DNA of 20,598 nucleotides from Roseovarius sp. (GTDB taxonomy: Bacteria > Pseudomonadota > Alphaproteobacteria > Rhodobacterales > Rhodobacteraceae), in the NCBI GenBank assembly GCA_007125415.1, contig SLDH01000292.1, positions 1 through 20,598 on the forward strand, given 5' to 3'. Of this stretch, positions 8,392 to 20,598 are shown one piece after another. The notes beneath the pieces are model-generated. The model saw nothing but the letters and a program-made list of their open reading frames with translations, was not told where the DNA came from and did no database searches. A program made the position numbers and the translations under genes. How positions within the stretch are numbered: position 1 is the stretch's first letter; the number at the start of each line of letters is the position of its first letter.

Positions 8392-8421
8392 TTGGTATAT
8401 TCTGGTTCAAACTGGTATAAT
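8392..8421 (+). promoter_or_regulatory. Promoter of the gntR gene (probably leaderless transcript)
   Basis: A perfect TATAAT lies at 8416-8421, with TTGGTA (four of six matches to TTGACA) at 8392-8397 and an 18-base spacer. The expected transcription start is about 7 bases after the -10 box, which is base 8428, the A of the gntR ATG. The transcript would therefore have little or no 5' leader. The 12-mer shared with the monooxygenase promoter lies inside the spacer. Confidence 0.6.
8401..8412. promoter_or_regulatory. Candidate GntR operator TCTGGTTCAAAC (copy 1)
   Basis: This 12-mer is identical to bases 10561-10572 just upstream of the monooxygenase gene. Here it sits between the -35 and -10 boxes of the gntR promoter, where a bound repressor would block RNA polymerase. 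ATTGGT (8391-8396), CTGGT (8412-8416) and the palindrome CCAATTGG (8368-8375) are nearby half-site-like sequences. FadR-subfamily GntR proteins commonly bind TGGT-n-ACCA type sites. Autoregulation is inferred. Confidence 0.5.
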
Positions 8422-8427
8422 GACAGG

Positions 8428-9141
8428 ATGAACGACCAGGTTTTCAAAGACCCGCACTCGCCCATCGGCGCCACCGTGCAGATCGTGATCGATACGCTTT
8501 TCGCGCGGATCAAGGCCGAGGAGTATCCGACGGACACGCGGCTGCCCTCGGAGCGCACACTGGCCGCGGAACTGGGTGTGGCGCGCAATACGGTGCGCGA
8601 GGCGCTCGATGTGCTGGAAGCGCAGGGAGCCATCCGCCGCAGGGCGGGGTCCGGCAGTTTCGTCACCTATCGCTCGGGGCCGGCAGATCCAACGAGCGAT
8701 CCGGATCTGGCCGATGATACGAGCCCGCTTGATCATCTTGTGGTACGCGGCATCCTCGAGCCGGAAATGGTGCGCCTTGCCGTCATCAACATGACGCCGC
8801 GGCAATTGGGTGTGCTGGCCGAGATCCTGTCGGAAATCGAAGCGGTGCAGACCGATGTGGATGCGTTCATCGGGTTGGAAGAGCGGCTTTATCTGCAGAT
8901 TGCCGAAGGAACCGGCAATCCGCTTCTGGCCTCGTGTTACCGGTTGACGGTGGAAACGCTGCATCCGTCGTTCCGCACCAAACTGCGCCGCAGAAACCTT
9001 ACCCCGAAGCGGATCGAGGAGCATCAGAAGCGCTACAACACGCTTTTCAATGCCATATCCTCGCGTGATGTGGCCTCGGCGGTGGAGTTCGTTAAACTCC
9101 ACCTCATCGAAGAGCAGAGCCTGCTTTTGCAGGATGGCTAG
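8428..9141 (+). CDS. GntR family transcriptional regulator, FadR/FCD subfamily
   Basis: This encodes a 237-residue regulator. Residues 19-81 form the winged helix-turn-helix (LPSERTLAAELGVARNTVRE, then AIRRRAGSGSFV). Residues 105-230 resemble the all-helical FCD ligand-binding domain, with RGILEPEMVRLA, GTGNPLL and the late histidines H199 (EEHQKRYN) and H225 (KLHL). The usual FH pair before the TGN motif reads LY (residues 154-155), so one typical metal-ligand histidine is absent. The ATG at 8428 is chosen because the frame upstream crosses the promoter. The neighbours, a binding-fold protein and a monooxygenase, suggest it senses a small amine, amide or related carbon/nitrogen source; the ligand is unknown. 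Its stop overlaps the convergent neighbour's stop. Confidence 0.88.
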   Translation: MNDQVFKDPHSPIGATVQIVIDTLFARIKAEEYPTDTRLPSERTLAAELGVARNTVREALDVLEAQGAIRRRAGSGSFVTYRSGPADPTSDPDLADDTSPLDHLVVRGILEPEMVRLAVINMTPRQLGVLAEILSEIEAVQTDVDAFIGLEERLYLQIAEGTGNPLLASCYRLTVETLHPSFRTKLRRRNLTPKRIEEHQKRYNTLFNAISSRDVASAVEFVKLHLIEEQSLLLQDG

Positions 9142-10589: not shown

Positions 10590-11933
10590 ATGTCGAAAAA
10601 GCGCATAGCGATCATCGGAGCCGGACCGTCGGGGCTGGCACAATTGCGGGCCTTTCAATCCGCCAGGGCGAAGGGCGAGGAGATCCCCGACATCGTCTGT
10701 TACGAAAAACAGTCGAACTGGGGCGGGCTGTGGAACTACACCTGGCGCACGGGTGTGGATGAAGACGGCGAGCCCTGCCATTGCTCGATGTATCGCTACC
10801 TTTGGTCGAATGGCCCGAAGGAGGGGCTGGAGTTCGCCGATTACACTTTCGATGAGCATTTCGGCAAGGAGATTGCCAGTTTCCCGCCCCGCGCCGTGCT
10901 CTTCGACTATATCGAAGGCCGGGTGCTGAAGGCCGGTGTGCGCGACTGGATCAAGTTCAATCATCTTGTGCGGGATGTGAGCTATGATGAGGCAACCGGC
11001 CTGTTCAGCGTCACCGCACGTGACACCAAGAACGACGCTGAAACGGTCGAGCAGTTCGACCATGTGATCGTGGCCTCGGGGCATTTCTCCACACCGAACG
11101 TGCCTTACTATCCGGGCTTCGAGAGCTTCAATGGGCGCATTCTGCATGCCCATGACTTTCGTGATGCGCGCGAGTTCATCGACAAGGATATCCTGATTCT
11201 CGGCACCTCCTATTCTGCCGAGGATATCGGCAGCCAATGCTGGAAATACGGCTGCAAGTCGGTCACCGTGGCGCACCGCACGGCACCGATGGGCTACAAA
11301 TGGCCCGACAACTGGCAGGAGGTGCCCGCGCTCGTGAAGGTCGAAGGCAGCACGGCCTATTTCAAGGATGGCACCTCGAAGGATGTGGACGCGATCATCC
11401 TGTGCACCGGGTATCGCCACCATTTCAACTTTCTGCCTGATGATCTGCGCCTCAAGACAGCCAACAGACTGGCCACGGCCGATCTCTACAAGGGTGTCGT
11501 CTGGACGAAGAATCCCAAGCTCTTCTATCTTGGCATGCAGGACCAGTGGTACACCTTCAACATGTTCGATGCGCAGGCCTGGTGGGTGCGCGACCAGATC
11601 ATGGGCAAGATCGCCCTGCCCTCGCAGGCAGAGATGGAAGCCGACGTGAAGCGCCGTGAGGCCGAGGAAGATGCGCTTGAGGATGATTATGGCTGTATCG
11701 CCTATCAGGGCGACTATATCCGCGAACTGATCGCCGAAACGGATTATCCCAGCTTCGACATCGAGACGGCCAATCAGGCGTTCTATGAGTGGAAGAAGCA
11801 CAAGAAGGAAGACATCATGACCTTCCGAAACCATGGCTATGTCTCGCCGATGAGCAAGAAGAAGGCCCCTCCCCACCACACACCATGGAAAGACGCGCTG
11901 GACGACAGTCTCGAAGCCTATTTGCAGACCTGA
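10590..11933 (+). CDS. tmm: Flavin-containing monooxygenase, trimethylamine monooxygenase (Tmm)-like
   Basis: This encodes a 447-residue FAD/NADPH monooxygenase. The FAD-binding GxGxxG is GAGPSG (residues 10-15). The FMO fingerprint [11 protein letters not shown] is at 180-190. The NADPH-binding loop GTSYSAED begins at 205 and includes Y208, which corresponds to the conserved active-site tyrosine of bacterial Tmm enzymes. Long stretches such as [37 protein letters not shown] and [17 protein letters not shown] match my memory of Methylophaga and Roseovarius Tmm, which oxidise trimethylamine to its N-oxide. The usual neighbours (tdm demethylase, TMAO transporter, glutamate-methylamide genes) are absent, so a paralog with another amine or sulfide substrate is possible. 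GGGAG at 10579-10583 is the ribosome site, 6 bases before the ATG. A strong terminator follows. Confidence 0.78.
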
Positions 11934-12058: not shown

Positions 12059-12218
12059 CGGACAGGTGCAGCGATAATGCCCGCAGGCCGCGACGAAGGA
12101 TTGCGCATCGCAACGGGGCATGATGCTCGGTGTCAATTACCTGTCGAATCTCCGGCAAAGACAGTCTAAGGACATGGCCAACAGCCCCTTTGCTCTCGAA
12201 AGACGGCGCGCCGACCTG

Positions 12219-13223
12219 ATGAACGATGTGATCAAGACCTTCCGTGCAGCCTTGCCCGAGGCAGCACAGACCTTTCGCAAGAGCCTGCGCCGCCGCATCG
12301 TCCGCGCGCGCTTGCGGCTGACGGGTGCGGACCATGATACCCGGATGCGGGCGGAGCGGCGCCTGCGCGGGCGCGAGCAGCATGACCGGGTGAGGCGGGC
12401 GGATGCGGTAATCGTCTCCTATCCGAAATGCGGGCGCACATGGTTGCGGGTGATGATCTCGCGGCTTTGCCAGCAAATCTATGACTTACCTGCTGATGTG
12501 GTGATCGAGTTCGACAACCTGCATCATATGGACAGCCGCGCGCCCAGACTTTTCTTCACCCATGACACGCATATCCGCGAATATACCGGCCATTGGGACA
12601 CGAAGGTTGATTACTATGACCGGAAAGTCCTGCTGCTGGTGCGTGATCCGCGCGATGTGGCTGTGTCGCAATTCTTCCACTGGCGGTTTCGCACAAAGGC
12701 CTGGAAGAAGGACATGAATGACTACCCCGCCCATGGTGCGGATTGCTCGGTCTTCGATTTCGCGCGCGAAGATACCGGCGGCCTGCCCAGGATCATCGAT
12801 TTCATGAATCTCTGGGCCAGGGAAAAAGACAGGCTGCGCGCGCATCTCGTCATCCGGTATGAGGACATGCGGCGCTCCCCGGTCGAAACCCTGGCCGAGA
12901 TCGCCGCTTTTCTGGATATCCCCGCCGATGCCGCGCAGATCGCCGAGGCGGTCGAATATGCCTCTTACGAGAACATGAAGAAGAAAGAGGCCGATCAGAG
13001 CTTTCAGAGCAGTGGCGGACGGCTGAAGCCCGGTGATGCCGCCAACCCCGACAGCTACAAGGTGCGCCGCGCCAAGGTGGGCGGCTATCGCGACTATTTT
13101 GATGATGCGCAACTTGCCGAAATCGATGCGATGGTCACCGAAAGGCTGGACCCGGCTTTCGGATACGGCGCGTCCCATCCAGTCTCAGCCAATATTCACC
13201 CCGAAGACGGAACCCCCCGATGA
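12219..13223 (+). CDS. PAPS-dependent sulfotransferase, paralog 1
   Basis: This encodes a 334-residue P-loop sulfotransferase, expected to transfer sulfate from PAPS to a hydroxyl on a lipid, sugar or small molecule. The 5'-phosphosulfate loop is PKCGRTW (69-75). A histidine in LFFTHDT matches the catalytic base position, RDPRDVAVSQFF is the 3'-phosphate site, and VRRAKVGGYRDYF near the C-terminus corresponds to the RxGxxGDWKxxF motif. The frame is open back to 12120. The ATG at 12219 is chosen because it aligns exactly with the start of the downstream paralog (MNDVIKTFRAALPEA against MSDTFRLLRAALPQA); starts at 12120, 12123 and 12174 are possible. The N-terminus is very basic. Its stop overlaps the next start as ATGA. 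Substrate unknown. Confidence 0.85.
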   Translation: MNDVIKTFRAALPEAAQTFRKSLRRRIVRARLRLTGADHDTRMRAERRLRGREQHDRVRRADAVIVSYPKCGRTWLRVMISRLCQQIYDLPADVVIEFDNLHHMDSRAPRLFFTHDTHIREYTGHWDTKVDYYDRKVLLLVRDPRDVAVSQFFHWRFRTKAWKKDMNDYPAHGADCSVFDFAREDTGGLPRIIDFMNLWAREKDRLRAHLVIRYEDMRRSPVETLAEIAAFLDIPADAAQIAEAVEYASYENMKKKEADQSFQSSGGRLKPGDAANPDSYKVRRAKVGGYRDYFDDAQLAEIDAMVTERLDPAFGYGASHPVSANIHPEDGTPR

Positions 13224-14194
13224 GCGATACTTTCAGATTGCTGCGCGCCGCCCTGCCGCAAGCGAGCAAGACCGCCTACAAGAAGGCGAGCCGGCGCCTG
13301 CTCAAGCTGCGGCTCGACCTCACGGGCGCCGATGAGGCCGAGCGCGTGCGCGCCGAGCGGCATCTGCGCGGGCGTGAGCAATATGCCCGGCTCAAGCGCG
13401 CGGATGCCGTGGTGGTCTCGTTTGGCAAGAGCGGCCGCACATGGTTGCGGGTGATGGTCTCACGGCTTTATCAGCAGGTTTACGGGCTTCCCGAGAACAT
13501 CATGATCGGCTTCGACAATTTCCACAATCTGGACCGCCGGATCCCGCGTATCTTCTTCACCCATGACAATTACATCGAGGATTACACCGGCAACACCGAC
13601 ACGAAGGCCGATTTCTACGACAAGAGAGTGGTGCTTTTGATGCGTGATCCGCGCGATGTGGCCGTGTCGCAGTTCTTTCAGTGGAAATTCCGCATGCGCC
13701 CCGAGAAGAAGGCGCTCAATGATTACCCGCCCCATGACGACGATTGCGAAATCTTCGATTTTGTGCGGCATGAGGGGGGCGGCATGCCCAAGATCATGCG
13801 TTTCATGAATCTCTGGGCACGCGAGATGGACCGCATCAGGGCGCTGGAACTTGTCCGCTATGAAGACATGCGCAGCGATCCGCATGAGGTCCTGCACCGG
13901 CTTGCGAAGTTTCTCGATGTGCCGGCCACGGAGGCACATATTGCTGATGCGGTGGAATATGCCTCTTACGACAACATGAAAAAGATGGAAGCAGGCGAAG
14001 GCTTCCGCATGAGCGGCGGGCGCATGACGCCCCGGGACGCCGCCAACCCCGACAGCTACAAGGTGCGCCGCGCCAAGGTGGGCGGCTATCGCGACTATTT
14101 CGATGATGCGCAGGTCAAGGCCGTTGACGCCATGCTCGATGACCTGCTGGACCCGGTTTATGACTACGGTACGAAAGCCGCATCAGATACGTGA
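13220..14194 (+). CDS. PAPS-dependent sulfotransferase, paralog 2
   Basis: This encodes a 324-residue protein clearly duplicated from the preceding gene; the two align almost without gaps from the first residue. The P-loop reads GKSGRTW (69-75), with glycine where proline is usual. The catalytic histidine is H115 in IFFTHDN, the 3'-phosphate site is RDPRDVAVS (142-150), and the C-terminal motif is VRRAKVGGYRDYF. The ATGA overlap with paralog 1 implies translational coupling. The stop is 18 bases from the end of the convergent glycosyltransferase gene, with no recognisable terminator between them. Divergence from paralog 1 in the first 160 residues, where acceptor-binding loops usually lie, could mean different acceptors; this is inference. 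Confidence 0.87.
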   Translation: MSDTFRLLRAALPQASKTAYKKASRRLLKLRLDLTGADEAERVRAERHLRGREQYARLKRADAVVVSFGKSGRTWLRVMVSRLYQQVYGLPENIMIGFDNFHNLDRRIPRIFFTHDNYIEDYTGNTDTKADFYDKRVVLLMRDPRDVAVSQFFQWKFRMRPEKKALNDYPPHDDDCEIFDFVRHEGGGMPKIMRFMNLWAREMDRIRALELVRYEDMRSDPHEVLHRLAKFLDVPATEAHIADAVEYASYDNMKKMEAGEGFRMSGGRMTPRDAANPDSYKVRRAKVGGYRDYFDDAQVKAVDAMLDDLLDPVYDYGTKAASDT

Positions 14195-14212: not shown

Positions 14213-15151
14213 TCAGGCCGCAGGCGCCAGCGGCGGAACACGCTCCATCACCTCGAACGCGTCATGGCGCACATGGTTCTGGCGCATCTCCTCGCGCAGC
14301 ATCTCTTCGGTGATCACGCCCTTTTCCATGGCCTCGCGCACCAGCCCGAAGAAGAACGCCTCCTGCGCCGGGTCGGGGTGCGCCTTGTAGGTGCCTGCCA
14401 TTCCGTAATCGCCGAAGAGCGCGCGGCGCGCACGGCGCACCCAGTGCTTGGGCGGAAAGAGGCGGAAGGAATCGGCCGCGCGGTAATCCACCGGCAAGCC
14501 TGTCTTCCAGGGTTGTGTCTTGCGGTGGGTGTTGTGGATCATCTTGGTATTGGCATCCAGATGATCGAAATCGTTCCATTCGTTTTCCAGCAGGCCGATC
14601 GTCTCGCGATCCTCGTAAAGCAGGCTGATCCACGGCATGTAATCGCGGCTGCCATCGAACATTGCCTTGAACTGCTCGTCAAATTTCCAGTGCGTGAGCT
14701 TGGCATTGTCGAGCAGCATCACGCTCGTGGCCAGCGCCCCGCGCTTGCCCTTGGATCCCGATTTCGGACGGCACATCACCGCCGCCCCCCGCATGTCACG
14801 CGAAAAGAGCTCCCACACATCGGCCAGCGCGAACACATCAGGGTCGATCACCACGGCACGTCCCTTGAAACCCATCAGTTGCGGCGGCGCAAAGCGGGTT
14901 GGGGTGAAGGATTGCAGATCGTTGCGCACCCATTCGCGCCACTCGCCATCGCGCAGATATTTCTGGCCTTCATGCTCCTCGAAGACCGGAAAATCATCGT
15001 AATGCATGATCCGGATATCGAATTTCTCGTTATGCTTCGACGTGCGGCGTATGGAATATTCGGACACCAGCGCGCCGATGAACTGCTTGTGATTGGCCTG
15101 AATATAGACGCAATAGTCCTTGGCGGTGCTATCGGTGGAAACTTCTGTCAT
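14213..15151 (-). CDS. GT8-like glycosyltransferase, paralog A
   Basis: This encodes a 312-residue soluble protein with a GT-A-like layout. The N-terminal strand-helix is YCVYIQANHKQFIGALVSEY, a DxD metal/nucleotide-sugar motif is in VVIDPDVFAL (D103, D105), and there is a histidine-rich element HNTHRKTQPWKTG (206-217). The last resembles the H...KPW motif near the C-terminus of GT8 enzymes. It is a close paralog of the gene at 19707, which it exceeds by about 10 N-terminal residues. The Shine-Dalgarno sequence AAGGGA (complement of 15159-15164) lies 7 bases from the ATG. It converges with the sulfotransferase pair and diverges from the third sulfotransferase. I do not recognise a named family; donor and acceptor are unknown. 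The glycosyltransferase call is moderately secure. Confidence 0.62.
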   Translation of the reverse strand: MTEVSTDSTAKDYCVYIQANHKQFIGALVSEYSIRRTSKHNEKFDIRIMHYDDFPVFEEHEGQKYLRDGEWREWVRNDLQSFTPTRFAPPQLMGFKGRAVVIDPDVFALADVWELFSRDMRGAAVMCRPKSGSKGKRGALATSVMLLDNAKLTHWKFDEQFKAMFDGSRDYMPWISLLYEDRETIGLLENEWNDFDHLDANTKMIHNTHRKTQPWKTGLPVDYRAADSFRLFPPKHWVRRARRALFGDYGMAGTYKAHPDPAQEAFFFGLVREAMEKGVITEEMLREEMRQNHVRHDAFEVMERVPPLAPAA

Positions 15152-15507: not shown

Positions 15508-16497
15508 ATGAGCCTCATCCCTTCCCTGCGCGAAATCGGTCGCGACAACATCCGCAAGGCGGTCATCATCGGCAGCACCGCCCCCCTGCCCCGCACCCTG
15601 CGCGTGGCGCAGCGCCGCGCGCGGCTGGGCGCTCTGGAAGTGGATATCGCGCGACGCTCCTCGCTGATCATCATCGCCCATCCCAAAAGCGGCAATACCT
15701 GGCTCAAGGTCATGCTCACCCGGCTCTACGCACAGCGCCACGGCATCCCCGAGGCGGATTTCGCACGCTACCCCGCTCTTGCGGATGCCAATCCCGATAT
15801 TCCCGGCTTTGCCGCCACCAATGGATGGTACAGCTATGAGCGCGCTGTGGGCGATCTGCTGCAACCGGGCGTGACGCAGGATCAAGGACTCAAGCAGAAG
15901 CCCGTGATGCTGCTGGCGCGCAACCCGCTCGATATCGCGGTGTCGTGGTTCTTCCAGTTCACCAAGCGGCAATCCGATCACAAGCAGGAGTTGATCAATG
16001 CCGGGCTCACCACGCCCGTTGACCGCGGCAATATCGAGATGTGGGATTTCGTGCGCCATAGCGAGATCGGCCTGCCGTCGCTCATCGCCTTTCTCAACCA
16101 TTGGGAAGCCGCGCTGTCGCAGCTGGATCACACGTTGCTGACCTCCTACGAGGCGCTGCGCGCGGATCCGGCCCGCGTGCTGGAGCAGATCACCACACTG
16201 ATGGGCGACAGCTTTTCGGAGGAAGAGATCGCCGATGCCGTCGCTTTCGGGTCCTTCGACAATCTGCGCAAGATGGAGACGGAAGGTTTCTTCCGCTCGG
16301 GCGGGCTCACGCTGCGCAATGCGGATGACCCTGAAAGCTTCAAGGTGCGCCGCGCCAAGGTGGGCGGCTACCGCGATTATTTCTCCGACACTCAGGTGGC
16401 AGAACTTGAGGGGCTGGTTGCGCGTGACCTCTCGCCGGGGCTGAAAACGCTGCTGGGGCTCGAGAGCCTGCAGCCCGCCGCACCGGCCGGCGGGTGA
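15508..16497 (+). CDS. PAPS-type sulfotransferase, divergent third copy
   Basis: This encodes a 329-residue P-loop sulfotransferase. PKSGNTW (59-65) is the PAPS 5'-loop, LLARNPLDIAVSWFF is the 3'-phosphate site, and VRRAKVGGYRDYF near residue 285 is the C-terminal PAPS motif, shared word for word with the two paralogs upstream. The middle and N-terminal parts differ strongly from them. At the position where both paralogs have the catalytic THD, this protein reads TNG (N105 in IPGFAATNGWY), so the usual base appears lost or moved. It opens a four-gene unit: the next start is 6 bases after its stop. The ribosome site is weak (GGGA before ATG). It may modify a lipid or glycan together with the downstream enzymes. 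Confidence 0.83.
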   Translation: MSLIPSLREIGRDNIRKAVIIGSTAPLPRTLRVAQRRARLGALEVDIARRSSLIIIAHPKSGNTWLKVMLTRLYAQRHGIPEADFARYPALADANPDIPGFAATNGWYSYERAVGDLLQPGVTQDQGLKQKPVMLLARNPLDIAVSWFFQFTKRQSDHKQELINAGLTTPVDRGNIEMWDFVRHSEIGLPSLIAFLNHWEAALSQLDHTLLTSYEALRADPARVLEQITTLMGDSFSEEEIADAVAFGSFDNLRKMETEGFFRSGGLTLRNADDPESFKVRRAKVGGYRDYFSDTQVAELEGLVARDLSPGLKTLLGLESLQPAAPAGG

Positions 16498-16503
16498 GCC
16501 TCC

Positions 16504-17688
16504 TTGACCGCGCAGCAGACAGCGCCGCGCATCTGGCGGGTCCTGGGCGACAAGCGCGGCGATAACGGCCAGGTGGAGCGGGTGGCGCGGGCGCTCGAGG
16601 CGCGCCATGGCTGGAAGAGCGCCCTGCGGCATCTCGAGATGCAGCCGAAATTCGTGCTTGGAAAGCCGCGCGTGGGGCCCACGCTCTACCATCTTGATCC
16701 GGCGCGCAGCGACCCGCTCGAGCCGCCCTGGCCCGATCTCATCCTCACCAGCGGGCGGCGCCCGGCCAATGCCGCGCTCTGGATCAAGCAACAATCGGGC
16801 GGGCGTGCGAAGATCGTGCTTCTCGGCAAGCCCTCGGGCTGGATGGCGCATTTCGACCTCATCGTGACCAGCGCCGAAACCCTGCCCGCACCATATGACA
16901 ATGTGCTGCATATCGGCCTGCCGCTGATGGATGTCGATCCCGCGCGGCTCGAAGAAGGCGAGGCCCGGTGGCGCGCGGATCTCGCCCCCCTGCCCCGGCC
17001 GCTCACGGCCTTTCTCATTGGCGGACCCACCAACCCCTTTCGCTACACCGCCGCCGTGCAGGCGCGGCTGCGCCGCCGCATCGAAGAGGTGCTGGACGCA
17101 GGCGGCACGGCCTATCTCGTGGGTTCGCGGCGCACGCCGCCGGGGTTCATGGAGGGGCTTGCCCGGGGTTTCGACGGGATGGTGCAGGTTTTTGACTGGG
17201 CGCAGGCTACGGGCGAGAACCCCTATGCCGGGCTGCTGGCGCTGGCGGATCGCTTCGTGGTTACCGGCGACAGTATTTCGATGCAGGTCGAGGTGGTGCG
17301 CCTTGGCAAGCCGCTCGAGATCGTCCCGCTGCCCACGGGCTGGCTCGGCAGGCTCGACAATGGCAGGCGTCGCCTCAGCGCCTGGCTCTTTCAGCCCCGG
17401 CGCGACGGGCGGCACATGGCCGAGACCGCGCGGATCACGCTCGCCCGCCTGCTCTACCGCCTGAAGCTCCTGCCGCAGACGCGGCATTTCCCGGCCTTTC
17501 ACCAGATGCTGATCGAACGCGGGCTGGCAAGCTGGATCGGGGAGGATACCACGCCCGTGTCTGAGCCCATGTCTGAGCCCGAGTATGGGCAAGCCGATGC
17601 GCTTGAAACCGATGCCGACATGGCCCGGATACTCGCTCGGATCGAGAGGCTGCTGGCGGCGAACGGCTTCTCCGGAGGCCGGCCATGA
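16504..17688 (+). CDS. ELM1/DUF1022-family protein (GT-B-like)
   Basis: This encodes a 394-residue protein. The N-terminus PRIWRVLGDKRGDNGQVERVA, followed by LILTSGRRPANAALWIKQ and IVLLGKPSGWMAHFDLIVTS, matches my memory of the ELM1 family, which includes plant mitochondrial fission protein ELM1 and many alphaproteobacterial proteins. A second Rossmann-like half contains AFLIGGPTNPFRY and RFVVTGDSISMQVEVV; the latter resembles the donor-binding region of GT-B glycosyltransferases. Its biochemical function is unknown. The TTG at 16504 is the only start between the in-frame stop at 16495-16497 and the conserved N-terminus. A short acidic linker near residue 355 contains a 12-bp tandem repeat. 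The stop overlaps the next start as ATGA, so it belongs to the lipid-enzyme unit. Confidence 0.75.
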   Translation: MTAQQTAPRIWRVLGDKRGDNGQVERVARALEARHGWKSALRHLEMQPKFVLGKPRVGPTLYHLDPARSDPLEPPWPDLILTSGRRPANAALWIKQQSGGRAKIVLLGKPSGWMAHFDLIVTSAETLPAPYDNVLHIGLPLMDVDPARLEEGEARWRADLAPLPRPLTAFLIGGPTNPFRYTAAVQARLRRRIEEVLDAGGTAYLVGSRRTPPGFMEGLARGFDGMVQVFDWAQATGENPYAGLLALADRFVVTGDSISMQVEVVRLGKPLEIVPLPTGWLGRLDNGRRRLSAWLFQPRRDGRHMAETARITLARLLYRLKLLPQTRHFPAFHQMLIERGLASWIGEDTTPVSEPMSEPEYGQADALETDADMARILARIERLLAANGFSGGRP

Positions 17689-18671
17689 CCGCCTCTCATA
17701 TCATCATGCTGAGCAACCCCACCAGCGGGAACAATCGCAAACACTGGGCGCGGATCGAGGCGCTGCTGGCCGCCCATCCGCAGATCATCCATCACATCAC
17801 GCCGGATTCCGACGCGGCGAGAGCGCTGATCGCAATGCTGGCCAAGGCGCCGCCCGATGTCATCGTCATCAATGGCGGCGATGGCACGATCGCAGCCACG
17901 ATCGGGATGATCGTGCAGAACTGGCCCGCCGCGCAACATCCTCTTTTCATCGTCCTGCCGGGCGGCACCGCCAACATGACAGCAGGCGATATCGGCATGG
18001 CCTCCGCCCACGCGCGGGCGCTCCGGCGGTTCCGCTCCTGGCTCAATGCTGGAGCACCACTCACCGGCAAGACACGCCAGCGCCACATCATGCAGGTTGC
18101 GGGGGCGGCTGACGGGCAGCTGCGCCATGGCATGTTTCTGGGCACCGGCGCGGTAATGCAGGCCACACGTTATGCTCATAGTAATGTTCATTCGAAAGGT
18201 CTGGGCGGCGAGATCAGCCTTATGCTGATCCTCATCCGGGCTCTCTGGGGGCTGATGCGGCAGGACCCGCGCTTTTACCAGCCTACCAATGTGAGCCTTG
18301 CCCTGCACGGCGCGGATGGCATGCCTCTTACGCGCGACACCGCACCCATGCTGATCCTCGTGGCCAGCACGCTGGAGCGGCTTTCGCTGGGTATCCGCCC
18401 CTTCTGGGCCGAGCGCGGCGGCGCGATCGGGCTTACGACGATTCGCGGCGGCGCGAAGCGCTTCGGTCGCGCCATTCTCTCACTGCTGCGCGGGCGCCCC
18501 AACCGGCATGTCACGGCACAAAATGGCTATGAGAGCTTTCGCGGCGATGCGATCCGCCTCCATTTCACCGGCGAGTTGAACCTTGATGGCGAGCTTTTTG
18601 AGACCGCAGGGGCCGATGCCCCGCTCAGCATCACCGCGCAGGGGCCGGTGCGATTTCTGTGCCCGCGATGA
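17685..18671 (+). CDS. Diacylglycerol kinase-family lipid kinase
   Basis: This encodes a 328-residue protein. The diacylglycerol kinase catalytic domain is clear: LSNPTSGNN (9-17) at the start, VINGGDGTIAA (61-71) with the GGDGT nucleotide-binding motif, and LPGGTANM (91-98). A C-terminal beta domain of the YegS/DgkB type ends near INITAQGPVR-like sequence (SITAQGPVRFL). Such enzymes phosphorylate diacylglycerol or related lipids, and sometimes sphingoid bases, at the membrane surface using ATP. It overlaps the genes on both sides by ATGA. Its product would be the substrate of the Tam41-like enzyme encoded next, which supports phosphatidate as the product. Exact lipid specificity cannot be read here. 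Confidence 0.85.
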   Translation: MTASHIIMLSNPTSGNNRKHWARIEALLAAHPQIIHHITPDSDAARALIAMLAKAPPDVIVINGGDGTIAATIGMIVQNWPAAQHPLFIVLPGGTANMTAGDIGMASAHARALRRFRSWLNAGAPLTGKTRQRHIMQVAGAADGQLRHGMFLGTGAVMQATRYAHSNVHSKGLGGEISLMLILIRALWGLMRQDPRFYQPTNVSLALHGADGMPLTRDTAPMLILVASTLERLSLGIRPFWAERGGAIGLTTIRGGAKRFGRAILSLLRGRPNRHVTAQNGYESFRGDAIRLHFTGELNLDGELFETAGADAPLSITAQGPVRFLCPR

Positions 18672-19618
18672 CCCGGCCACCTGCCTATCCCACGCCCGAG
18701 GGGCCGACACCGGAAAGCTCGTCAGAGTTGCGCGCCCTTCTCGGTGCGCTAAGCGAACGCTTTGGCGACGGGTTGCAGGCAATCATCCTCTATGGGTCCT
18801 GTCTGCGTTCGGGTGATCTGACCGAGGGGCTTGTTGATCTCTATGCGCTGGTCGAGCCGACGCCTCGCTCCGAGCCCCGCGCGTTCTTGCGCATTGCCGG
18901 GCGTATCCTGCCGCCCAATGTCTATTACCTCGAAGCGTCGTCAGGCGAGCAAACCGTGCGTTGCAAATACGCGGTGCTCAGCCTTGCGCAATTTGAGCGC
19001 GGCACGAGCGCGCGCTGGTTCCAGTCCTATCTCTGGGGGCGGTTCGCCCAACCGGTGAAAGTGGTCTGGGCGCAGAACGCCACCATTGCGGCACGGCTGG
19101 ACGCCGCGTTCTTTCGTGCGGGCGAAACGCTGCTGCGCCGCAGCCTGCCCGCCCTGCCCGCAGAGGGGCGCGTGGATGATCTGTGGCAGGCGGCCCTTGC
19201 CCTCAGCTATGGCACCGAGCTGCGCGCCGAGCAGCAGGGACGCAGCGCTGAGCTGGTCGCGCAGGGCCGGGCCTTCTTCACCGCGATGACCGAGGCCTTG
19301 CAGCCCCGCCTCGCGGACCTGTTGCAGATCTACACAGCGGATGACGGCAGCCTTCTCTACCGCGCGCAGGTTCCACGCCGCGCGCGGCGCATCGCACCGT
19401 TGCTCTGGGGGCTGCGCCGGGTGCAGGGCAAGGCGCTGTCCCTCACGCGGCTCGTCAAGGCGCTCTTCACCTTCGAGGGCGGGCTCGATTACATCGCCTG
19501 GAAACTCACGCGCCATTCGGGCCAGGTGGTGGAAATCCCCGACCGGGTTCGCCGCCGGCCGCTTGTGCATATCTGGGGGTTCTGCTGGCAGCTTTACCGA
19601 CGTGGGGTTTTCCGCTGA
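18668..19618 (+). CDS. Tam41-like phosphatidate cytidylyltransferase (CDP-diacylglycerol synthase)
   Basis: This encodes a 316-residue protein with a nucleotidyltransferase-fold start: AIILYGSCLRSG (YGS at 42-44), then VDLYALVEP with D57. Only one acidic residue is in the usual DxD place, as I recall also for mitochondrial Tam41. KYAVLSLAQF (100-109) and YLWGRFAQPVKVVW (121-134) correspond to the KYGVVS...YLAGRLQKPVKI block of Tam41. RLVKALFTFEGGLDYIAWKL (261-280) resembles its C-terminal helices. Tam41 makes CDP-diacylglycerol from phosphatidate and CTP and is unrelated to the membrane enzyme CdsA. The ATG at 18668 overlaps the kinase stop (ATGA). The assignment rests on remembered motifs; an uncharacterised nucleotidyltransferase is the alternative. 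Confidence 0.65.
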   Translation: MTRPPAYPTPEGPTPESSSELRALLGALSERFGDGLQAIILYGSCLRSGDLTEGLVDLYALVEPTPRSEPRAFLRIAGRILPPNVYYLEASSGEQTVRCKYAVLSLAQFERGTSARWFQSYLWGRFAQPVKVVWAQNATIAARLDAAFFRAGETLLRRSLPALPAEGRVDDLWQAALALSYGTELRAEQQGRSAELVAQGRAFFTAMTEALQPRLADLLQIYTADDGSLLYRAQVPRRARRIAPLLWGLRRVQGKALSLTRLVKALFTFEGGLDYIAWKLTRHSGQVVEIPDRVRRRPLVHIWGFCWQLYRRGVFR

Positions 19619-19706: not shown

Positions 19707-20598
19707 ATGAAATACGGCGTCTTCATCCAGACCAATCACAAGCAGATCGTCGGTGCGATCGTGGCCGAACATGCGCTGCGGCGCTATTCGCTCAACAATG
19801 ACAAGTTCGATGTGCATCTTGTGGATAGCCGGGACTATCCTTTCTTCGCCGCGCGCGAAGGACAGGAATATCTGCGCGACGGGATTTACCGGACCTGGCT
19901 CAACGATGATCTGCAATCCTTCACGCCGACCCGCATGATGCCGCCCGAACTCATGGGCTATGAAGGCCGCGCTGTCGTGATCGACCCCGACATTTTCGCC
20001 TGTGTGGACATCTGGGATCTCTTGAGCCGTGACATGGGTGGCAAGGCGATCCTTGCGCGCATGCGTTCGGGCCCCAAGGGGTTGATCGACGGAAATTTCG
20101 CGTCAAGCGCAATGCTGCTTGACTGTGCGCAACTGACCCATTGGAAAGTCGAGGAGCAGTTCAACGCCATGTTCGACGGCGATCTCGATTATCAGGACTG
20201 GATCGGCCTGCGCAAGGAGCCGCGCGAGACGATCGACCTTTTCGAGAAAGAGTGGAACGATTTCGACAAGTTCACGCCGGAAACCAAGATGCTGCATACC
20301 ACGCGGCGCAAGACCCAGCCCTGGAAGACCGGGCTGAAAGTGGATTGGCGGCCCGCCGAGCGCTTCCGCGCCTTCCCGCCCGCAGGCTGGGTGCTGCGCC
20401 TGCGCCGTCAGCTTTTCGGAGAATATGGGCTCATGGGCAATTACAAGGCCCATCCCGACAAGAATCAGGAGCGTTTCTTCCTTGGCCTGCTCAAGGAATG
20501 CGTGAACGAAGGCAAGATCACAGAGGAATTCCTGCGCGCCGAAATGGCCCAGAACCACGTGCGCCATGATGCGCTCGAGATTCTGGAGCGCACGCCCG
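19707..20598 (+). CDS. GT8-like glycosyltransferase, paralog B (3' end outside window)
   Basis: The frame from the ATG at 19707 is open for 297 codons to the window edge with no stop. It starts MKYGVFIQTNHKQIVGAIVA and aligns nearly end to end with the minus-strand glycosyltransferase at 14213-15151. Shared blocks include LQSFTPTR, GRAVVIDPD (DxD at 93-95), QLTHWK, RKTQPWKTG (201-209), YKAHPD and QNHVRHDA. By comparison with that paralog only about 10-15 residues are missing. It is expected to be a soluble GT-A-type sugar transferase acting with the sulfotransferases and lipid enzymes around it; donor and acceptor are unknown. There is no strong Shine-Dalgarno sequence. The coding call is very secure, the enzyme class moderately so. 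Confidence 0.68.
   Translation, partial: MKYGVFIQTNHKQIVGAIVAEHALRRYSLNNDKFDVHLVDSRDYPFFAAREGQEYLRDGIYRTWLNDDLQSFTPTRMMPPELMGYEGRAVVIDPDIFACVDIWDLLSRDMGGKAILARMRSGPKGLIDGNFASSAMLLDCAQLTHWKVEEQFNAMFDGDLDYQDWIGLRKEPRETIDLFEKEWNDFDKFTPETKMLHTTRRKTQPWKTGLKVDWRPAERFRAFPPAGWVLRLRRQLFGEYGLMGNYKAHPDKNQERFFLGLLKECVNEGKITEEFLRAEMAQNHVRHDALEILERTP

Follow-up and report, generated by a model that had tools for sequence, protein, structure and literature searches.

A Tam41-fold nucleotidyltransferase of Roseovarius as a probable CDP-ceramide synthase of a bacterial sphingolipid pathway

Introduction

Which lipid phosphate is activated by a Tam41-like protein of an alphaproteobacterium? The question is raised by a gene at 18668..19618 (plus strand) on contig SLDH01000292.1 of Roseovarius sp. 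(assembly GCA_007125415.1); the window, i.e. the whole stretch that was analysed, comprises 20,598 nucleotides. From the letters alone the gene product had been taken for a Tam41-type CDP-diacylglycerol (CDP-DAG) synthase with a bearing on the origin of mitochondrial Tam41. Tam41/TAMM41 (PDB 6ig2, 6ig4) resides in mitochondria and supplies CDP-DAG for cardiolipin (PMC7018664). Bacterial Tam41 proteins were known before (Kimura 2022, cited in PMC11646218; also PDB 7ecd). CdsA-type synthases, which catalyse a reaction on a lipid phosphate analogous to that considered here, are integral membrane proteins unrelated to Tam41 in sequence and structure (PMC7018664). Judged by sequence, a predicted structure and analogy to Caulobacter, the Roseovarius protein is probably a Tam41-fold cytidylyltransferase of a bacterial sphingolipid pathway, which would convert CTP and ceramide-1-phosphate to CDP-ceramide. 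In the following, T denotes the Tam41-fold protein, D the DAGK_cat kinase encoded upstream, E a PF06258 protein, S a sulfotransferase and K an unnamed conserved protein.

T is a remote relative of Tam41

The open reading frame of T is uninterrupted (316 amino acids from the ATG at 18668), and its start codon shares bases with the stop codon of the D gene (ATGA at 18668). The predicted motifs were confirmed on this intact frame in place and order: YGS (residues 42-44; 18791..18799), VDLY (residues 56-59) with D57 as the single catalytic-type Asp (18836..18838), KYAVLS (residues 100-105) with K100 of KYAV at 18965..18967, YLWGRFAQPVKV (residues 121-132) and KALFTFEGGLDYIAWKL (residues 264-280). 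R125 of WGRFAQP is encoded at 19040..19042 and YGTELR, with Y181, E184 and R186, at 19208..19225, all on the plus strand. An alignment of 28 T proteins, down to 27% identity with window T, has 23 invariant columns, among them Y42, G43, S44, D57, K100, R125, Y181, E184, R186 and E188. With the exception of E184 these residues have invariant counterparts in an alignment of 16 Tam41 proteins. YGS is invariant in both sets, D57 corresponds to D47 of Tam41 P0121, K100 to K106, R125 to R130, and Y181 and R186 to Y180 and R185, respectively; E184 occupies the position of the invariant Asp, D183. T thus has one acid of the nucleotidyltransferase triad together with conserved basic residues, and Tam41 likewise keeps one acid of the usual triad (PMC11646218). 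Compared with the Firmicutes Tam41 (7ecd) T is 18% identical, has Glu in place of the Asp of the Y..D.R motif, and ends in a longer conserved C-terminal tail. This mostly helical segment (19457..19615, plus strand) lies outside the profile-profile match described below and, as judged by eye, extends beyond the end of Tam41.

The expected match of T to the Pfam Tam41 profile PF09139 was obtained at E 1e-4, yet its 22.2 bits did not reach the gathering cut-off of 24. Among 27 T homologues, picked among the matches listed, 21 matched at E<=0.01 (best 1.6e-7). A profile-versus-profile comparison of the T family with Tam41 proper (hhalign) gave E 4.5e-6 and a probability of 87%. Searched against the PDB, the window T sequence alone matched no Tam41 sequence, and the 27-row T profile reached mitochondrial Tam41 (6ig2) only at E 0.012 and 18 bits. 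The best matches of the predicted T structure (mean predicted local distance difference test score, pLDDT, 88.7) were Tam41 structures, as the original prediction had anticipated. Homology of T to Tam41 therefore goes beyond chance, yet is remote. When PF09139 was searched against the own genome it found no match, although hmmscan gives T 22 bits; such a family search consequently loses weak members. In the class a PF09139 match over the cut-off was absent from all 289 genomes, a result that is thus a lower bound, as this search also missed window T.

T co-occurs with ceramide-type genes

Is T part of a lipid pathway in its own cell? The own assembly consists of 410 contigs and is 87% complete. 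On one of them, C379, we found a serine palmitoyltransferase (Spt; 570.7 bits, NCBIfam cut-off 500), an acyl-AMP ligase (723 bits, cut-off 600) and, by profile, a reductase and a phosphoesterase; an acyl carrier protein (ACP)-like protein and an MsbA-related ABC transporter on the same contig scored below their NCBIfam cut-offs. Contig C410 carries a gene of the ceramide-synthase type together with a nucleoside triphosphate (NTP) transferase, a 2-oxoglutarate-oxygenase-type gene (c14) and a further E. By these matches the own genome encodes a ceramide pathway of the kind in which the Caulobacter protein CpgC takes part.

Next, the distribution of T was compared with that of the ceramide-synthase type across the window's class, taken as Alphaproteobacteria and sampled with 289 genomes. 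T was matched by its profile in 35 of them, in one case weakly (G044, E 3e-5, without the ceramide-synthase type), and the ceramide-synthase type was present in 41 (a corrected profile gave the same 41). Of the 34 genomes with a strong T match, 33 had the ceramide-synthase type, and eight genomes had the type without T (Fisher p 1e-34, uncorrected for kinship and with a profile built mostly from T neighbours). In a sample of the window's own family T occurred in 4/248 genomes. The same four were the only ones with ceramide-synthase-type matches under E 1e-100, a threshold chosen after the scores were seen; at E 1e-10 the type was matched in 14/248, i.e. there are ten weaker matches elsewhere. 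This family search, and the Pfam/NCBIfam scan in which 10 of 12 members of the type matched the GNAT family, used a profile with one wrong-strand row. An Spt-like protein, 50-80% identical to that of the own genome, was present in all 17 genomes chosen from the T loci described next.

Gene order around T was analysed in 80 related loci, the best 80 of 120 from named genomes and as such biased to close relatives. Genes were identified by profile searches on stop-to-stop frames; alpha-oxoamine synthases and CDP-alcohol transferases were called from two motifs. In 73 loci T is preceded by D on its own strand, with a median gap between profile matches of two bases. Three of the remaining seven (L013, L030, L080) begin too near T to judge, and in four (L069, L070, L071, L074) D was not found at T. 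In 25/80 loci T has one or more neighbours of ceramide type (acyl-AMP ligase NF006624, epimerase-type reductase, or a GNAT-like protein at the position of the Caulobacter N-acyltransferase); the oxoamine motif was seen in a single one (L077). In addition, stretches from 32 of the 34 strong-T genomes of the class were examined, leaving aside the own genome, one genome whose T is on a 3-kb contig, and L153, which holds the other part of a split gene. Here a ceramide-type gene was near T in 27/32, and D passed a strict threshold in 27/32. In several of these stretches (e.g. L129, L139) the order is acyl-AMP ligase, reductase, alpha-oxoamine synthase, T, D, CDP-alcohol transferase, phosphoesterase, GNAT and NTP transferase. 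The same arrangement has been reported for CC_1165 to CC_1153 of Caulobacter (PMC11324152).

Plasmid records with a T relative were also inspected (four of 17). Those of Pseudomonas sp. JS425 and Roseomonas mucosa contain such a sphingolipid-type cluster, in which T is named 'hypothetical protein' and a T neighbour 'ELM1/GtrOC1 family putative glycosyltransferase'. A Diaphorobacter plasmid has a rearranged cluster with head-group type genes. Because sphingolipid-type clusters are located on plasmids, the pathway may move between species. The Pseudomonas cluster (pPNP1, L166) is situated near an integron with sul1, that of Diaphorobacter (pDCB2, L169) near mer genes.

A CpgC-type step with ceramide-1-phosphate and CTP

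In Caulobacter the lipid kinase CpgB, which has a DAG-kinase domain, is described as ceramide kinase (PMC10331486), and CpgC (CC_1161, ccna_01219), which has a CDP-DAG-synthase-like InterPro domain (PMC11324152), is needed with CpgB for ceramide phosphoglycerate (PMC11324152, PMC12275187, PMC10331486). Like CpgC, T adjoins a DAG-kinase-domain lipid kinase and in several relatives is located inside a ceramide cluster. Unlike the CpgC locus, the window showed no CpgA-type CDP-alcohol transferase by motif, and a Pfam scan of nine window proteins detected none either; moreover, the ceramide genes are on other contigs and window T is flanked by S, PF06258 and K genes. The name Caulobacter was absent among the matches listed in the protein search for T relatives.

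We propose the following sequence of reactions. Ceramide would be made by the acyl-AMP ligase, the ACP-like protein, Spt, the epimerase-type reductase and the GNAT-type N-acyltransferase encoded elsewhere in the own genome. D would then act as a CpgB-type ceramide kinase, and T, presumably in association with the membrane, would form CDP-ceramide from ceramide-1-phosphate and CTP. Later enzymes would exchange the CMP moiety for a head group. CTP as donor and ceramide-1-phosphate as acceptor of T appear likely because of the fold and residue evidence. The Caulobacter papers of 2025 and 2026 (PMC12275187; PMC13228409), one a preprint of May 2026, call the mechanism of CpgC unidentified. Fold, residues and co-occurrence offer for this step a specific reaction that is easy to test, that of ceramide-1-phosphate with CTP. 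It agrees with the nucleoside diphosphate (NDP)-activated ceramide that was suggested in PMC11324152 from the CDP-DAG-synthase-like domain of CpgC. The term CDP-ceramide had no match in the open-access library searched, which leaves most subscription journals outside. Some members of the T family carry automatic names, e.g. phosphatidate cytidylyltransferase, which may be wrong.

Several observations weigh against a CDP-ceramide synthase. The likeness of T to CpgC is one of gene order and domain type, not of direct alignment, and that of D to CpgB one of domain and position. Ligase, reductase and GNAT genes were all missing within 8.5 kb of T in 55/80 loci, and 5/32 class stretches are without a ceramide-type gene; the plasmid record of Qipengyuania has a D-T pair with ceramide genes absent within 12 kb. 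In one genome with T, G071 (82% complete), the ceramide-synthase type is missing. An NCBIfam model that names this type was not found; the label 'ceramide synthase' stands for position, the GNAT match and the description of CC_1154 as an N-acyltransferase (PMC11324152). Among the 80 loci the CDP-alcohol transferase motif was not found near T in those from Roseovarius and gammaproteobacteria, and the three PF01066 proteins of the own genome are on contigs other than that of T. Finally, the activity of CpgB in vitro is about the same on diacylglycerol as on ceramide (PMC10331486); therefore phosphatidic acid stays among the possible substrates of T.

Alternative functions

This last point leads to the function originally predicted. 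T might be a second, soluble CDP-DAG synthase for phosphatidylglycerol and cardiolipin, with D as a diacylglycerol kinase that supplies phosphatidic acid. The fold and residues of T, the DAGK_cat domain of D with the in vitro activity of CpgB, and the 55 loci without ceramide-type genes are as expected for such an enzyme, and a Firmicutes Tam41 is reported to produce CDP-DAG, as cited in PMC11646218. However, the own genome already has a CdsA-family protein (PF01148, 182 bits), as had been presumed, and T tracks the ceramide-synthase type and Spt. In Caulobacter, deletion of cpgB left phosphatidic acid unchanged (PMC10331486), and the CC_1161 mutant was without ceramide phosphoglycerate (PMC11324152). 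We consider a CDP-DAG synthase unlikely. The prediction of a Tam41-type nucleotidyltransferase was thus borne out by fold and residues, whereas CDP-DAG as its likely product was not, since T is tied to ceramide-type genes.

Slightly less probable still is an enzyme that acts on ceramide-1-phosphate without cytidylyl transfer, either by direct attachment of the head group, as in the first Caulobacter model, or by use of another nucleotide. The mechanism left unidentified in the later Caulobacter papers leaves room for this, and an obvious consumer of CDP-ceramide was not found beside T in the Roseovarius-type lineage. Yet the direct reaction was rated energetically not very favourable (PMC11324152), and nucleotidyl transfer is indicated by the residues that T and Tam41 share as invariant. 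An aminoglycoside-type or other small-molecule nucleotidyltransferase is most improbable. In its favour, Foldseek with the predicted T structure ranks aminoglycoside transferases next after Tam41, and there is a non-significant NCBIfam match to ANT(9) (E 0.084); against it, the fold groups with Tam41 and not with aminoglycoside transferases.

T and the origin of mitochondrial Tam41

Does the gene tell us where mitochondrial Tam41 came from? A quick tree was calculated from a selection of 82 T proteins of the loci retrieved. Eleven Roseovarius-type rows including window T join one Thioalkalivibrio protein (Shimodaira-Hasegawa-like approximate likelihood ratio test, SH-aLRT, 100). This group is placed inside a larger set (SH-aLRT 98; 26 gammaproteobacterial rows and the 11 of Roseovarius type), apart from the other alphaproteobacterial rows. 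A single clade of all 43 alphaproteobacterial rows was rejected by the approximately unbiased (AU) test (p 3.5e-5; 3.1e-5 without a betaproteobacterial row which lay among the alphaproteobacterial ones), a grouping picked after the tree was seen. Most likely, T of the Roseovarius lineage was acquired from gammaproteobacteria, provided that the root is outside that set. The L065 contig, titled Klebsiella pneumoniae (a metagenome-assembled genome), groups with an uncultured gammaproteobacterium in this tree; the title may be a mislabel.

Yeast Tam41 matched the Firmicutes Tam41 (7ecd) with 106 bits. At the sequence level eukaryotic Tam41 is therefore much closer to Firmicutes Tam41 than to the T branch (106 vs 18 bits). 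The bearing on mitochondrial Tam41 that had been anticipated did not hold: T is remote from the eukaryotic proteins and falls inside gammaproteobacterial diversity, and together with the AU tests this led us to reject a mitochondrial-origin reading. As far as these comparisons go, the T gene gives no support to an alphaproteobacterial ancestry of mitochondrial Tam41. A relative of Tam41 in an alphaproteobacterium is not necessarily related to the ancestor of the mitochondrial protein.

Neighbouring genes and a possible head group

T is the last gene of a single run E-D-T on the plus strand with ATGA overlaps at the starts of D and T. E (16504..17688) is a PF06258 'Mitochondrial fission ELM1' protein (E 1.5e-50), and D (17685..18671), the proposed CpgB-type ceramide kinase, matches PF00781 with E 3.6e-13. 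With E and T, this bacterial lipid cluster brings together two proteins whose family names refer to mitochondria. Three sulfotransferases (PF00685) and two copies of K surround the run. The sulfotransferases are located on the plus strand at 12120..13223 (E 3.6e-26), 13220..14194 (E 1.6e-23; its start overlaps the preceding gene by ATGA) and 15508..16497 (E 3.7e-19). By alignment, one K is at 14213..15151 on the minus strand, and the second copy (19707..20597, plus strand) leaves the window at its end.

The K copies that were scanned had no match in Pfam or NCBIfam, and a K sequence profile had just one chance-level match in the PDB. In 21 aligned copies the mean column identity is 71% and a DPD motif is invariant; that K is a glycosyltransferase is a guess. 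Many Roseovarius-type and Halieaceae loci have two or more copies of K around T. Of the 80 loci, 56 have E, 52 a sulfotransferase and 51 K within 8.5 kb of T. A protein of about 287 amino acids without Pfam match (c4; L031 6173-7033 and relatives) directly precedes D in many Halieaceae loci and is within 8.5 kb of T in 34/80.

The sulfotransferases, E and K are candidates for the later steps, i.e. in the Roseovarius-type lineage the head group may be glycosylated and sulfated by their products. Tentatively, and with considerable doubt, one may go further: a Tam41-fold CDP-ceramide synthase could feed a new sulfated and glycosylated phosphosphingolipid of Roseovarius and related gammaproteobacteria by way of the linked genes for PF06258, K and the sulfotransferases. 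In that case the Tam41 fold would be used for two lipid classes: for glycerolipids by mitochondria and by Firmicutes, for sphingolipids by Proteobacteria, Nitrospirota and others. A search of the same open-access library for bacterial sphingolipid, sulfotransferase and ceramide synthase matched only a paper on a human protein, by title.

Farther upstream in the window a GntR-type regulator (8392-9141, below all cut-offs) precedes, with a minus-strand open reading frame of 429 amino acids in between, a trimethylamine monooxygenase at 10590-11933, which matches the NCBIfam equivalog NF058570 with 828 bits (cut-off 675).
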